From Lachnospiraceae bacterium 3-1 (lineage in GTDB: Bacteria > Bacillota > Clostridia > Lachnospirales > Lachnospiraceae), in NCBI GenBank assembly GCA_000403255.2, contig KE159579.1:1-36183 (forward strand): 36,183 nt of DNA, read 5' to 3'. Below, piece by piece: positions 29,205 to 34,091 of this stretch (its first letter is position 1; every line of letters begins with the position of its first letter). A model generated the notes under the pieces. The model was not told the origin of the DNA. It did not search any database and was given only the letters and a program-made list of their open reading frames with translations. Position numbers and translations under genes: made by a program.

Positions 29205-29289
29205 GCCAGTCAATGACAATCTGAGCCAAATAATGAAAACCAGTGACAATCCAGGGGCAGTAAAAATTTTCTTTTGGAGGTATCAGATT

Positions 29290-29751
29290 ATGGGAATCGC
29301 ATGGAAGTACCTGGATAAGAAGTCGGCAGCGGCAGACGCAGTGAAGGATTACAGCAGCATGAAGTTCATCATTGAACACACAGATGATGAGATTAAAGCG
29401 GCATATGAAAAAATGGGCGGGATCAGCAGCCCGCAGTTTGACGGGATGCCGCATGCGCACAACCCCCATGCCGCAGAGGACAGGATGGCGGAGGGAGTGG
29501 ATGAGATCAGCGTCCTGCGGGAGCGGTACCGGCAGGCAATGGAATATATGGCGTGGTTCGTCCCGGCATGGGAGGAACTTTCGGAGGATGACCGCTATGT
29601 GCTGGATGCGTTCTACAGCGAGGACAATGAATACGGTAGCAGCGCGGCGGAGGATGTGGCGGAGTACTTCGGGATTGAGCGTGCATCCGCATACAGGAGA
29701 AAGAACCGGGCATTGGCAAAACTGACCACCCTGCTGTTCGGCAAACCATAA
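29290..29751 (+). CDS. Sigma-like phage late regulator
   Basis: A 153-residue protein. The C-terminus (LSEDDRYVLDAFYSEDNEYG, VAEYFGIERASAYRRKNRAL) is a sigma-70 region 4-like helix-turn-helix of the DUF1492/ArpU-like type that often sits before phage packaging genes. TTGGAGG precedes ATG 29290. It ends the early region and could turn on late transcription downstream. Confidence 0.8.
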   Translation: MGIAWKYLDKKSAAADAVKDYSSMKFIIEHTDDEIKAAYEKMGGISSPQFDGMPHAHNPHAAEDRMAEGVDEISVLRERYRQAMEYMAWFVPAWEELSEDDRYVLDAFYSEDNEYGSSAAEDVAEYFGIERASAYRRKNRALAKLTTLLFGKP

Positions 29752-29816
29752 TGTCCACTTTGTGAGATGATTTATCCGTTTCGGCGTGGTATGCTGATAG
29801 GGTAAAAAAAATGTCA

Positions 29817-29859
29817 AGAGGGCCTTCGTGGGAGCATTGGAATCCTGCGGGGGCTTTCT
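29817..29859 (+). terminator. Hairpin between late regulator and IS110/HNH
   Basis: AGAGGGCCTTCG (29817-29828) pairs over 12 positions, counting G-T wobbles, with CGGGGGCTTTCT (29848-29859). It is followed by TTATG only, so termination would be weak. It may instead be a leader structure of the late operon. Confidence 0.5.
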
Positions 29860-29992
29860 TTATGTCGTGAGTCCAGCTAATAAATGTCAATAGGTAAATG
29901 AAAAATATTTTTCTTCTAAAAAAGGGCAGACTTTCCCCTTGGTGAAAATATCATTTTTTAAAAAGATATTGATTCGTTGGATTTGCAGTGTT

Positions 29993-31309
29993 TTATGCAG
30001 CTATGTCGCATTTAGCAGCATTGTATTGTTTGATATGTTCCTGCGGAGTAATGATTTCAAAAGGCTTGTTATCTCTGAGCATTGCAAATATTATGTTGCA
30101 TACCTTGTGTGAAACAGCACCCATTGCCACAAGCTTGGGTTTTGCTCCACATTTTTTGAGATAGTAATCCCGGAGTACTGGATTTTTAGCTTCACCTGTA
30201 CGGGATACACTGATGCTTTGTAAAGTTAGTGTATGAACAACGCGCCTGGCTATGGCAGAGCCTCTTTTGGACATTTGGATTTTGGTACCTTCAAATTTGC
30301 CGGATTGTTTTACTGACGGATCAAGACCAAAGTAAGCAAAAAGTTGTTTTGGTTTTGAAAATGCAGAAAAATCACCAATCTCTCCCATGAGGGATATGGC
30401 AGATAAGAAACCGGCACCTTTGAATGTTTCGATCAAGTGAATCTGTTTCACAAAATCGGTATCTTCATTAGCATTTACGAGTTCGTGCATTGCTTCTAGA
30501 ATGCTGCCGATTTCTTCATCATATTTGCGGATGAAGCTGATATAGAGCCGAATCCGCTTGATGTTGCTGTCAATGATGTAACCGAACTCATTTGCTTCAT
30601 GAGCAGCCTGGATAATGGCATTATACTTGTTTTGAGCATATGTAAGCCCAAAACGGGCAGTTGACTTGATGATACCAATAATCTCTTGTTTGTCTGCTTC
30701 AATAAAAGCAGATGGAGAGGAATAAGTTTCCAATAAGGTAAGGGATGTATTAATTGTAACCTTGGAGAAAATGCCAAGATATTGTGGAAATGCCATGCGA
30801 AGTTCACCTTGGAGTTTGTTCACGTAAGCGCTGCGGTTATCCATTAAGTCATAGTATTCACGACATAGATTACGACAGTTCAAAGCAAGGTCAGAAGGCA
30901 TGAGAGAAACCTTTAAATCAGGTTTCAAACCAACCAAAGCCGCTTTTTTAGAATCAAAACGGTCATTATGTACTTTTCGTATGTTGATATTTGTGCTATT
31001 CTTAGTGATGATAGGATTGATAACTGAGCAGTTAAAACCCTTATCACGAAGATAGCAGAAGAGTGGGTAATGATAAATTCCCGTGGATTCCAGGAAAATG
31101 CGACTTTCCAAAGAATACAGCTCTTCTGCTTCTTTTATTTTAGAAACAGCGGTTGTAAGGGAACTCATTTTGTTGTGTAGGATTTTATAAGGTTTTCCTA
31201 CAAACTGTTGGTTTGGAAGTGCGATAGACATCCATGAGAAGTCAGCACCGACATCAATACCAACAGAGATGAATAGATCCTCAGGATTAAAAATAACTTT
31301 GTTTGGCAT
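29993..31309 (-). CDS. IS110-family DEDD transposase (bridge-RNA-guided recombinase)
   Basis: A 438-residue protein. The N-terminal RuvC-like DEDD domain shows Asp19 (VGIDVGADFSW), Glu74 (FLESTGIYHYPL), Asp116 and Asp119 (HNDRFDSKKAAL). The C-terminal Transposase_20 domain has FKGAGFLSAISLMGEIGDF, FAYFGLDP and MSKRGSAIARR with the catalytic serine. ATG 31309 follows AAAGGAG; a GTG at 31360 is in frame but lacks a ribosome site. The gene looks intact. Confidence 0.93.
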   Translation of the reverse strand: MPNKVIFNPEDLFISVGIDVGADFSWMSIALPNQQFVGKPYKILHNKMSSLTTAVSKIKEAEELYSLESRIFLESTGIYHYPLFCYLRDKGFNCSVINPIITKNSTNINIRKVHNDRFDSKKAALVGLKPDLKVSLMPSDLALNCRNLCREYYDLMDNRSAYVNKLQGELRMAFPQYLGIFSKVTINTSLTLLETYSSPSAFIEADKQEIIGIIKSTARFGLTYAQNKYNAIIQAAHEANEFGYIIDSNIKRIRLYISFIRKYDEEIGSILEAMHELVNANEDTDFVKQIHLIETFKGAGFLSAISLMGEIGDFSAFSKPKQLFAYFGLDPSVKQSGKFEGTKIQMSKRGSAIARRVVHTLTLQSISVSRTGEAKNPVLRDYYLKKCGAKPKLVAMGAVSHKVCNIIFAMLRDNKPFEIITPQEHIKQYNAAKCDIAA

Positions 31310-31655
31310 GGGTGAAAGCTCCTTTCTGATAGGAATCCATTTCCAATCTGGCAGGTACACAACCTAGCGTGTTATACGGGTATCGCCTTCCGGTTCCCAA
31401 CCAGCTAAAACATAAAACCCTGTCGAATGGACTAATTGACTCACTTGTAGGTATAGGCTGATGAAAATCAGCTTCCCAAGGAGGTGAACATTCTTTATCC
31501 TATCCTAAGGGATAATACCTTATGTTTCATCTGGTGTCTATCAGGAACCGTCAGACATGATAATTATTTTTGGATAACATCTGATGAAGGAAGAACACCT
31601 TCTTCTGTTATCTGATTTATAGAAACTTATTAAACAAGTAGTCTTGATTGACTAC
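31310..31655 (-). ncRNA. Candidate IS110 bridge RNA in the 5' (left) end
   Basis: Downstream of TATAAT (31667-31662 on the minus strand) a 5' hairpin GTAGTC-aatcaa-GACTAC (31655-31638) follows. Four guide-like segments then appear in order: TCACCTCCT (31487-31479) equals the left target flank plus CT core; GTGAG (31444-31440) equals the complement of core plus right flank; TTAGCTGG (31408-31401) equals the element's right end; CTAG (31367-31364) weakly matches the complement of the left end. A 6-bp hairpin GCTGAT-TTTC-ATCAGC separates the first two. This matches the target-loop then donor-loop order of IS110 bridge RNAs. In the integrated copy the HNH start supplies TTGGCA, 17 bases from TATAAT, so the RNA may also be made here. 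The 3' end is not defined. Confidence 0.7.
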
Positions 31656-31683
31656 ACCATTATTATACTAGGAGGTGAGGGCA

Positions 31684-32043
31684 ATGCCAAGAAAACCGAA
31701 GAGGCCGTGTTCCTTCCCCGGATGCCCAAAGCTGACGGAGGGACGGTTCTGTGAGGAGCATGGGAAGCAGGAGAACCGCCGCTACGAGAAGTACGACCGT
31801 GACCCGGCTGTACGCCGTAAGTATGGCAGGGCGTGGAAACGAATCCGTGACCGCTACGCCGCAAAGCACCCGTTCTGTGAGGAGTGTCAAAAGAAAGGTC
31901 TGCTGCGGCCGGTGGAGGAGGTACACCACAGACTGCCATTGGCAGAGGGCGGGACGCATGACGAGGCAAACCTTGTGTCGTTGTGCCAGTCCTGCCATGC
32001 AAGGATTCATGCGGAGCGGGGCGACCGTTGGAATAAGCATTAA
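31684..32043 (+). CDS. HNH endonuclease of the packaging module
   Basis: A 119-residue protein: Cys-rich start CSFPGCPKLTEGRFCEEHG, then FCEECQKKGLLRPVEEVHHR (first zinc ligands and the catalytic HH), LPLAEGGTHDEANLVSLCQS CHARIHAE (N and final H). HNH proteins adjacent to terminases are needed for DNA packaging or cos cleavage in cos phages. ATG 31684 follows AGGAGGT (31670-31676). The IS110 element is inserted exactly in that ribosome site but its last two bases recreate it. Confidence 0.92.
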   Translation: MPRKPKRPCSFPGCPKLTEGRFCEEHGKQENRRYEKYDRDPAVRRKYGRAWKRIRDRYAAKHPFCEECQKKGLLRPVEEVHHRLPLAEGGTHDEANLVSLCQSCHARIHAERGDRWNKH

Positions 32044-32813: not shown

Positions 32814-34091
32814 ATGGGAAAGACAACAACCGAGATGCAGCTTGTGCCGCTCTCCAAATTAGTGCCGTATGTAAACAACGCACGGACGCACTCGCCGGAG
32901 CAGCTCACGAAGCTCCGCTCGTCCCTGCGGGAGTTCGGCTTCATCAACCCGGTCATCATCGACCGGGAGTTCAATGTCATCGCGGGGCATGGCAGGATCA
33001 TGGCGGCAAAGGAAGAAGGGATTGCAGAGGTTCCGTGTGTGTTTGTGGACTATCTGACGGAGGCGCAGAAGAAAGCCTACATCCTTGCGGACAACAGGAT
33101 GGCTCTGGACGCAGGATGGGATGAGGAGCTGCTCCGCATCGAGATCGAATCCCTGCAGGGCGCGGATTTTGACGTGTCGCTGACGGGCTTCGGTGAGGAT
33201 GAGATCGCCGACCTTTTTGCCGGGGACGGGGAGAAGGATGTGAAAGATGATGACTTCGACCTTTCCGCAGCCTTGGAGAAGGCGGCGTTCGTGGAGCGGG
33301 GCGACATCTGGACGGTGGGCAGGCACAGGCTGATGTGCGGGGACGCCACCAGCGCGGAGGATGTGGCGGCGCTCATGGACGGGAAGAAGGCAAACCTCAT
33401 CGTGACGGACCCGCCGTATAACGTCGCATTCAAAAGCGGCAGCGGGCTTTCCATCCAGAACGACAGCATGGAGAACGGGGAGTTCTACACATTTCTGTAC
33501 AATTCCTTCCAGAACATGGCGGCGCATCTGGAAAAAGGCGGCGCGGCCTATGTGTTCCATGCGGACACGGAGGGGCTGAATTTCCGCAAGGCGTTCGTGG
33601 ACGCGGGGTTCCACCTTGCCGGGGTGTGCATCTGGGTGAAGAATTCCCTCGTGCTTGGGCGCTCGGACTACCAGTGGCAGCATGAGCCTGTGCTGTACGG
33701 CTTCCTGAAGAACGGCAAGCACCCGTGGTATTCCGACCGGAAGCAGACCACCATCTGGAACTACGACAAGCCGAAGCGGAACAAAAACCACCCGACCTCA
33801 AAGCCGCTTGACCTGCTCGGCTACCCCATCTGCAATTCCTCCCAGGAGAACGCCATTGTGCTGGACACCTTCGGCGGCAGCGGCTCCACGATGATGGCGT
33901 GCGAGCAGACGGACCGCATCTGCTGCATGATGGAGCTGGATGAGAAGTATGCATCGGTCATCCTGCGGAGGTATGTGGAGGACACCGGGGATTCGGAGAA
34001 TGTGTATGTGGAGCGGGGCGGGGAGAAGATCCCGTACTCCGCACTGGTAAAGGAGGTGCAGACGGATGCAGGACAGGGAACTGATGATTGA
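32814..34091 (+). CDS. ParB-like plus DNA N6/N4 methyltransferase
   Basis: A 425-residue protein. Residues 1-110 form a ParB/Srx-like domain (LVPLSKLVPYVNNARTHS, INPVIIDREFNVIAGHGRIM). The rest is a beta-class DNA methyltransferase with catalytic TDPPYN (about 199-204) and SAM motif FGGSGST (about 352-358). DPPY suggests adenine N6, but cytosine N4 is possible. Such fusions are common beside phage terminases. AGAGGAAA precedes the ATG. It probably protects phage DNA from host restriction. Confidence 0.92.
   Translation: MGKTTTEMQLVPLSKLVPYVNNARTHSPEQLTKLRSSLREFGFINPVIIDREFNVIAGHGRIMAAKEEGIAEVPCVFVDYLTEAQKKAYILADNRMALDAGWDEELLRIEIESLQGADFDVSLTGFGEDEIADLFAGDGEKDVKDDDFDLSAALEKAAFVERGDIWTVGRHRLMCGDATSAEDVAALMDGKKANLIVTDPPYNVAFKSGSGLSIQNDSMENGEFYTFLYNSFQNMAAHLEKGGAAYVFHADTEGLNFRKAFVDAGFHLAGVCIWVKNSLVLGRSDYQWQHEPVLYGFLKNGKHPWYSDRKQTTIWNYDKPKRNKNHPTSKPLDLLGYPICNSSQENAIVLDTFGGSGSTMMACEQTDRICCMMELDEKYASVILRRYVEDTGDSENVYVERGGEKIPYSALVKEVQTDAGQGTDD

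Follow-up and report, generated by a model that had tools for sequence, protein, structure and literature searches.

An IS110-group element of Lachnospiraceae bacterium 3-1 with a predicted bridge RNA and an anti-Shine-Dalgarno guide

The 36,183-nucleotide stretch of DNA analyzed here (the window), which is the entire contig C9 of the genome of Lachnospiraceae bacterium 3-1, carries an insertion sequence that very probably specifies, from its left end, a bridge RNA with an anti-Shine-Dalgarno (anti-SD) guide. By the features tested, the element belongs to the IS110 group and has a predicted bridge RNA. Its left target guide reads TCACCTCCT, which is the sequence by which the 3′ end of 16S rRNA reads Shine-Dalgarno (SD) signals. 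An earlier interpretation of the window (the sequence-only reading) had proposed a bridge RNA with four guide segments and missed that the target is an SD sequence.

The element and its guide segments

The element and its surroundings comprise the following features.

29870-31671, minus strand: IS110-group element, 1802 bp counting both CT cores (same end points in other own-genome copies; empty paralogous site)
29993-31309, minus strand: transposase/recombinase coding sequence, 438 aa plus stop, ATG at 31309-31307 (Pfam PF01548 and PF02371)
31310-31671, minus strand: left end (LE), 362 nt, upstream of the coding sequence and holding the predicted bridge RNA (from sequence)
29870-29992, minus strand: right end (RE), 123 nt (from sequence)
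31670-31671, minus strand: left CT core (shared copy ends; empty site)
29870-29871, minus strand: right CT core (shared copy ends; empty site)
31670-31678, plus strand: target half left beside the element, an intact SD AGGAGGTGA starting 14 nt upstream of the HNH gene's ATG
31684-32043, plus strand: HNH endonuclease gene (Pfam PF01844), ATG 14 nt from the core, start codon after the target SD

The 438-aa protein matched both DEDD_Tnp_IS110 (PF01548) and Transposase_20 (PF02371), hit the solved structures of IS621 (8wt6, E = 3.2e-10) and ISCro4 (9t56, E = 1.1e-10), and contains the IS110-group motif G--P----SG in the form GLDPSVKQSG. The layout is also that of the group, with a long noncoding end 5′ of the gene (LE, 362 nt), a shorter one 3′ of it (RE, 123 nt), a core dinucleotide in common, and a scarless empty site. 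Among the matches listed, the genome holds seven long copies at 100% identity, that of the window counted, plus a subtype at 87-88%, and the own-genome copies have their ends and CT cores in common. The borders of the element are fixed because contig C12 holds a paralog of its flanks (82-92% identity) that runs uninterrupted across the site with a single AG core (...TTTATGCCATGAGGAGGTGAGAGCAATGCC).

Beyond the HNH gene lie a phage terminase small subunit gene and then a ParB/DNA-methylase gene, and these neighbors therefore place the element in a prophage-like region. The gene on the other side of the element (29233-29751) had no Pfam match, and an Rfam search of 29700-31800 gave no match up to an E value of 1. 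The ParB/methylase gene (32814-34091, plus strand), which adjoins the terminase gene, carries both a ParB N-terminal domain and an N6/N4 DNA methylase domain.

Four segments of the left end are the candidate guides.

31479-31487, minus strand: left target guide (LTG) TCACCTCCT, anti-SD (5 of 3000 shuffles; covaries with left flanks)
31440-31444, minus strand: right target guide (RTG) GTGAG (covaries with right flanks)
31401-31408, minus strand: left donor guide (LDG) UUAGCUGG (matches 8 nt of the right end; no sign of covariation)
31364-31368, minus strand: right donor guide (RDG) G-CUAG (complementarity to the left end across loci)

All four were present, in the order and at the places given by the sequence-only reading. 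On the minus strand, the LTG (31487-31479) equals the left flank plus core (31678-31670), the RTG (31444-31440) is the complement of CT+CAC at 29871-29867, the LDG segment TTAGCTGG (31408-31401) equals 29880-29873, and CTAG (31367-31364) is the complement of the left-end CTAG (31671-31668). Chance was assessed with 3000 dinucleotide shuffles of 31313-31655, counting matches at least as long. An LTG match of 9 was found in 5 of the 3000, an RTG match of 5 in 911, an LDG match of 8 in 322, and an RDG match of 4 in 2249; all four together were found in 0 of 3000. From the window alone, only the LTG beats chance, and the RTG, LDG, and RDG each lie within it. The earlier claim that four independent matches make chance unlikely holds for the LTG and for the joint count and was overstated for the other three taken singly.

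Predicted fold and promoters

The structural and promoter features assigned to the element are as follows, all on the minus strand.

31349-31505: bridge RNA core, consisting of the target-binding loop and the donor-binding loop (covariance model R1, 180.9 bits, with this sequence among the model's own members)
31638-31655: 5′ stem-loop (two-sided changes in 3 of 6 pairs)
31573-31612: accessory long hairpin between the 5′ stem-loop and the target-binding loop (conserved; compensatory changes)
31497-31505: 5′ arm of the target-binding-loop stem, pairing with 31425-31432 (99.7% of cells paired; no two-sided changes)
31457-31472: target-binding-loop hairpin (two-sided changes in 5 of 5 pairs)
31419-31424: 5′ arm of the donor-binding-loop stem, pairing with 31350-31355 (two-sided changes in 4 of 6 pairs; one pair is disrupted in 23 of the 42 rows)
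31378-31398: donor-binding-loop hairpin (98-99% of cells paired; no two-sided changes)
31662-31667: −10 TATAAT of the circle-junction promoter, 17 bp from the RE TTGACA once the ends are joined
29885-29890: −35 TTGACA of the circle-junction promoter (from sequence)
31512-31540: possible internal promoter TAGACA-17-TATTAT, just ahead of the RNA core (hexamers conserved)

The structure scored was drawn up manually on the model of IS621 and from the sequences themselves, and it comprises 43 pairs in 8 helices over 42 left ends. In this set, 96.8% of cells were paired, and two-sided changes numbered 173 versus 58.4 (SD, 6.7) in shuffles and at most 18 with the partners slid. The strongest covariation lay in the target-loop hairpin and the donor-loop stem, where the two clades have CAGG/CCUG and UGAG/CUCA. 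The full left end folded better than its shuffles (z = −3.68); the 178-nt core alone folded no better than shuffles (z = +0.57). RNAalifold returned a partly different long-range structure for the full left end, and the IS621-like handwritten one was counted instead. Two hairpins had been proposed earlier, one at the 5′ side (31655-31638) and one separating the LTG from the RTG (31472-31457); both are conserved with compensatory changes. The sequence-only reading had named a lack of conserved structure around the segments in homologues as evidence against itself, and the fold proved to be conserved. The accessory hairpin (GATAACA..GAAGG / CCTTC..TGTTATC) is missing in three deep elements, L122, L123, and L126, with left ends of 274-303 nt.

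Covariance model R1, which describes the core, had matches in 18 of the 291 genomes scanned for the class and in 12 of the 299 scanned for the phylum; both counts include the own genome. Since the model includes the LTG columns, its matches favor CCTCC guides and give little information on relatives with other targets; the statement that guides stay SD-like thus refers to the first, protein-found set of homologues described below, not to R1 matches.

The arrangement TTGACA-17-TATAAT at the junction has the form of a promoter and is predicted to be one. TTGAC-type and TATAAT-type hexamers stand 17 bp apart on the joined ends in all 63 first-set homologues having both ends (63/63). At the internal promoter-like site, the hexamers are largely kept, the middle of the spacer is variable, and the −10 is weak in three short-LE elements. 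Closer to the gene, at 31317-31338 (minus strand), RNAalifold predicts a short conserved hairpin in which the transposase's own SD (AAAGGAG) can pair with a TCCT that lies upstream of it. By sequestering the SD, this hairpin may lower transposase translation.

Guides, flanks, and gene starts among homologues

One protein scan yielded the first set of homologues, 80 loci that are 63-100% identical in the best segment and belong mostly to Lachnospiraceae, Clostridium, and Tissierellales. The left end was found in 68 of them and the right end in 75, and the left ends began with CTAGTATAAT (47 loci), CTTGTATAAT (16), CTAGTATTAT (4), or CTAATATAAT (1). In the alignment of left ends, the LTG and RTG were variable within an otherwise conserved RNA. 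Guides were compared with flanks for the 76 elements whose guides could be read, 66 from the 80 loci and 10 own-genome copies, which represent 35 guide haplotypes; L022 and L023 (own-genome copies whose LE is not fully readable), L123 and L126 (guide pattern unparsed), and duplicate insertions were left out. Guides were permuted by haplotype, because related sequences count several times in such tests.

On average, 5.52 of 7 left-flank positions fitted the element's own LTG (n = 73) versus 3.90 (SD, 0.31) after permutation, and the RTG complement agreed with its own right flank at 2.47 of 4 (n = 71) versus 1.34 (SD, 0.22); for each guide, 0 of 5000 permutations were as high. The first right-flank base agreed with the RTG in 91.5%, and no distinct signal came from the fourth, for which 781 of 5000 permutations scored as high. 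A second set, obtained mostly with the covariance model and covering other families and two plasmids, gave 5.07 of 7 for the LTG (n = 44; permuted, 3.99) and 2.86 of 4 for the RTG (n = 29; permuted, 1.58), again with 0 of 5000 permutations as high for either. Nine of 54 loci failed in parsing and were left out of this set, three of its 44 (L136, L137, and L138) repeat first-set insertions, and its score is lowered by L185 (guide apparently misparsed) and L141 (border doubtful), which were retained. Within the own genome, the right flank of the window-type copies (CAC-type guide) fits the first RTG base, C, in 4 of 6, and that of the ~88% identical subtype (TAAT-type guide) begins with T in 3 of 3 (L016, L019, and L020).

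The flanks of most other copies match their own guides. This supports the bridge RNA reading, and the finding by which the sequence-only reading would have been given up, other copies at unrelated sites, did not materialize. Ten of 73 left flanks agree with their own guide at three or fewer of 7 bases. Among these poorly matching flanks, L060, L093, L095, L099, and L133 are unlike the guide, and L072, L075, L082, L107, and L121 are SD-like and either off register or a better fit to another guide. The left flanks of L095 and L133 end with TAGCTG or TTGCTGG and resemble the element's own right end, not an SD; they may represent insertion beside another copy or a rearrangement.

On the donor side, homologue loci pair a left-end CTAG with CUAG in the RNA and a left-end CTTG with CAAG. 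The first RD/RDG base after the core was complementary in 119 of 119 loci (73 and 46 per state) and both bases were in 118 of 119, the exception being L060. These loci, many of which are close copies, are 121 minus L080 and L133 (both read CTAG/CUAG by eye), and the count parsed the states CTA/CTT and CUAG/CAAG only, so that third states such as those of L187 and L188 fall outside it. On a transposase tree of 65 distinct proteins, the RD/RDG state changed 7 times, and at least 5 of the changes are forced by well-supported branches. L187 and L188, from a Peptoclostridium acidaminophilum plasmid, have a third RDG state, CCAG, which was seen before their left end was read and from which a left end of CTGG was therefore predicted; compared afterwards, the border reads CTGGTATGAT, with a left end beginning CTGG. 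The CTAG match had been rated weak earlier, as only four bases long, and this rating is corrected by the covariation of the RDG with the left end across loci.

The match between the LDG UUAGCUGG and the right end covers positions −9 to −2 relative to the core; one base separates it from the core, which is not part of it. Outside the Lachnospiraceae-type elements, mostly GCUGG alone is constant, some elements depart further, and no covariation with the right end was found among homologues. The match described earlier is thus present in the window and, beyond GCUGG, is not borne out in other clades; pairing of the LDG with the right end is consistent with these data and unproven. The comparative data support the predicted LTG, RTG, and RDG. 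Putative handshake guides fit in the window family (UC versus donor GA) and are mixed in distant families, where L142, L146, and L150 do not fit.

A gene start was scored where a start codon lay 7-18 nt from the core with an open reading frame (ORF) of at least 30 codons or one open to the end of the locus. By this criterion, a start codon (53 ATG) with an ORF stood beside 61 of 71 unique first-set insertions, most often 13 nt from the core; starts were scored likewise at 16.8% of 6300 random flank positions and at 31% of 205 GGAGG sites. The second set had a start at 35 of 44 insertions. A strict SD core (GGAG, GAGG, or AGGA) occurred within the first 10 nt from the core in 57 of the 71 insertions, or in 52 without the AG of the core. 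Twenty of the 22 distinct first-set LTGs spell AGGAG or GGAGG on the other strand, where the remaining two read AGGGGG and AGGAAGG. Annotated coding sequences start beside the left end of both plasmid copies, one for an alpha-amylase in P. acidaminophilum (LTG TCGTCTC, flank TCGTCTC) and one for a hypothetical protein in Thermoanaerobacterium (LTG ATTCCTC, flank ATTCCTC). Because the core is shared by target and element, insertion has left the SD of the window's HNH gene complete.

In the pooled flanking DNA, 30 of 68 sites matching some guide at 9 of 9 positions and 224 of 828 matching at 8 of 9 lay near a start. Insertions are therefore denser at true starts than the guide match alone gives, which points to a contribution from selection or from some other factor in addition to guide pairing. 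This excess, with real starts at 61 of 71 insertions, favors a loosely specific insertion sequence shaped by selection against gene disruption, in which insertions off SD sites are lost and the guide matches are secondary. We consider such an origin unlikely, as the right flanks and the outer left-flank bases, which follow each clade's own guide, are left unexplained by it. That the recombinase protein itself reads SD DNA, leaving the left-end RNA some other purpose such as transposase regulation, would accord with the history of IS900, for which a preference for translation start signals was already on record in 1997, ahead of the guide-RNA papers of 2024; the title of the 1997 paper by Doran et al. 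says that IS900 targets translation initiation signals. Protein reading is, however, difficult to reconcile with the covariation of guides and flanks in both sets and with two ~88% identical subtypes in one genome that differ in RTG and right flank, and we give it very little weight. Chance similarity of four segments within a hairpin-rich leader could be maintained from the window alone, where the RTG, LDG, and RDG are each within chance, yet for the LTG, RTG, and RDG the permutation tests, the RD/RDG agreement at 118 of 119 loci, and the covariation of the structure speak against it, and as an account of all four segments it is scarcely credible; the LDG match by itself may still be due to chance.

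Proposed route and relation to known systems

In the favored reading, that of a bridge RNA with an anti-SD guide, the RNA would be made from the left end, its LTG and RTG would track the flanking DNA and its RDG the element's own left end, and the CT core would be common to target and donor. The LTG, UCACCUCCU, has the letters of the ribosomal anti-SD, by which the RNA would address SD DNA. By analogy with IS621, excision would join the ends, and the sigma-70 promoter TTGACA-17-TATAAT so formed would drive the RNA; recombinase protomers would pair the two loops with their respective DNAs, circle junction and target, and a cut beside CT would be followed by insertion. Insertions would fall 5′ of start codons, the left end facing the gene, and the shared core would make the SD whole again there, as is seen with AGGAGGTGA in the window.

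The available portions of the IS621 reports (PMC11208160 and PMC11208158) describe an RNA in the left end with two internal loops, the guide order LTG-RTG-LDG-RDG, a 9-nt LTG including CT, a CT core, and a sigma-70-like promoter on the joined ends, all of which have their likeness here. The RDG neighborhood here also holds the G that in IS621, according to the same portions, faces and wobble-pairs with a T beyond RD. There are also differences: the target is REP in IS621 and SD here, the IS621 RNA is 177 nt long whereas the present left end measures 362 nt and contains an additional hairpin as well as a possible internal promoter, and the LDG match here ends at −2, without the core. The extra hairpin (31573-31612) is absent from these portions of the IS621 description.

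IS900 of Mycobacterium avium subsp. paratuberculosis, also of the IS110 family, prefers CATGN6TCTCCTT and likewise inserts at an SD and start codon, as described in the accessible part of PMC8141618. According to that part, which contains no bridge RNA, an ORF on the complementary strand (hed) spans IS900, whereas the longest such frame inside the present element has 72 codons. The seekRNA of IS1111/IS110 elements (ISEc21; PMC11187229, in the sections drawn on) is similar in being an upstream noncoding RNA that matches both target strands, with an order reversed versus the IS1111 type; the targets differ, and those sections name no SD-targeting member. In the open-access literature, judged mostly from listings, we found no paper linking an IS110 bridge RNA to an SD target; papers on RfaH and NusG retrieved for this link were off topic by title and abstract. 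SD targeting is thus already known from IS900, and it is the link to a bridge RNA guide mimicking the anti-SD that was not found in open-access papers.

A guide imitating the sequence by which the ribosome reads SD signals would offer a mechanism for the target preference reported for IS900 in 1997. The 35 guide haplotypes are natural guide/target pairs for testing bridge RNA rules, including RTG changes and three RD/RDG states, and a recombinase that is aimed at gene starts and leaves the SD intact could be of practical use for placing DNA in front of genes.

On a wider scale we offer, tentatively and with somewhat more doubt than confidence, a picture of an IS110 lineage in Clostridia and some relatives whose anti-SD LTG would be held in SD space by selection while the RTG drifts freely. 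Such a transposon would be directed to gene starts and spare expression by rebuilding the SD it invades; transcription, translation, or gene-sparing selection would also shape retention, and the bridge RNA could pair with mRNA start sites.

Among the distant matches of the covariance model, the guides of L147, L199, and L201 cannot clearly be called SD-like. The guide of L147 (..AGAACC-CT) and its left flank (..AGAAACC-CT) are alike, with no clear SD, and this locus is a possible case of natural retargeting.
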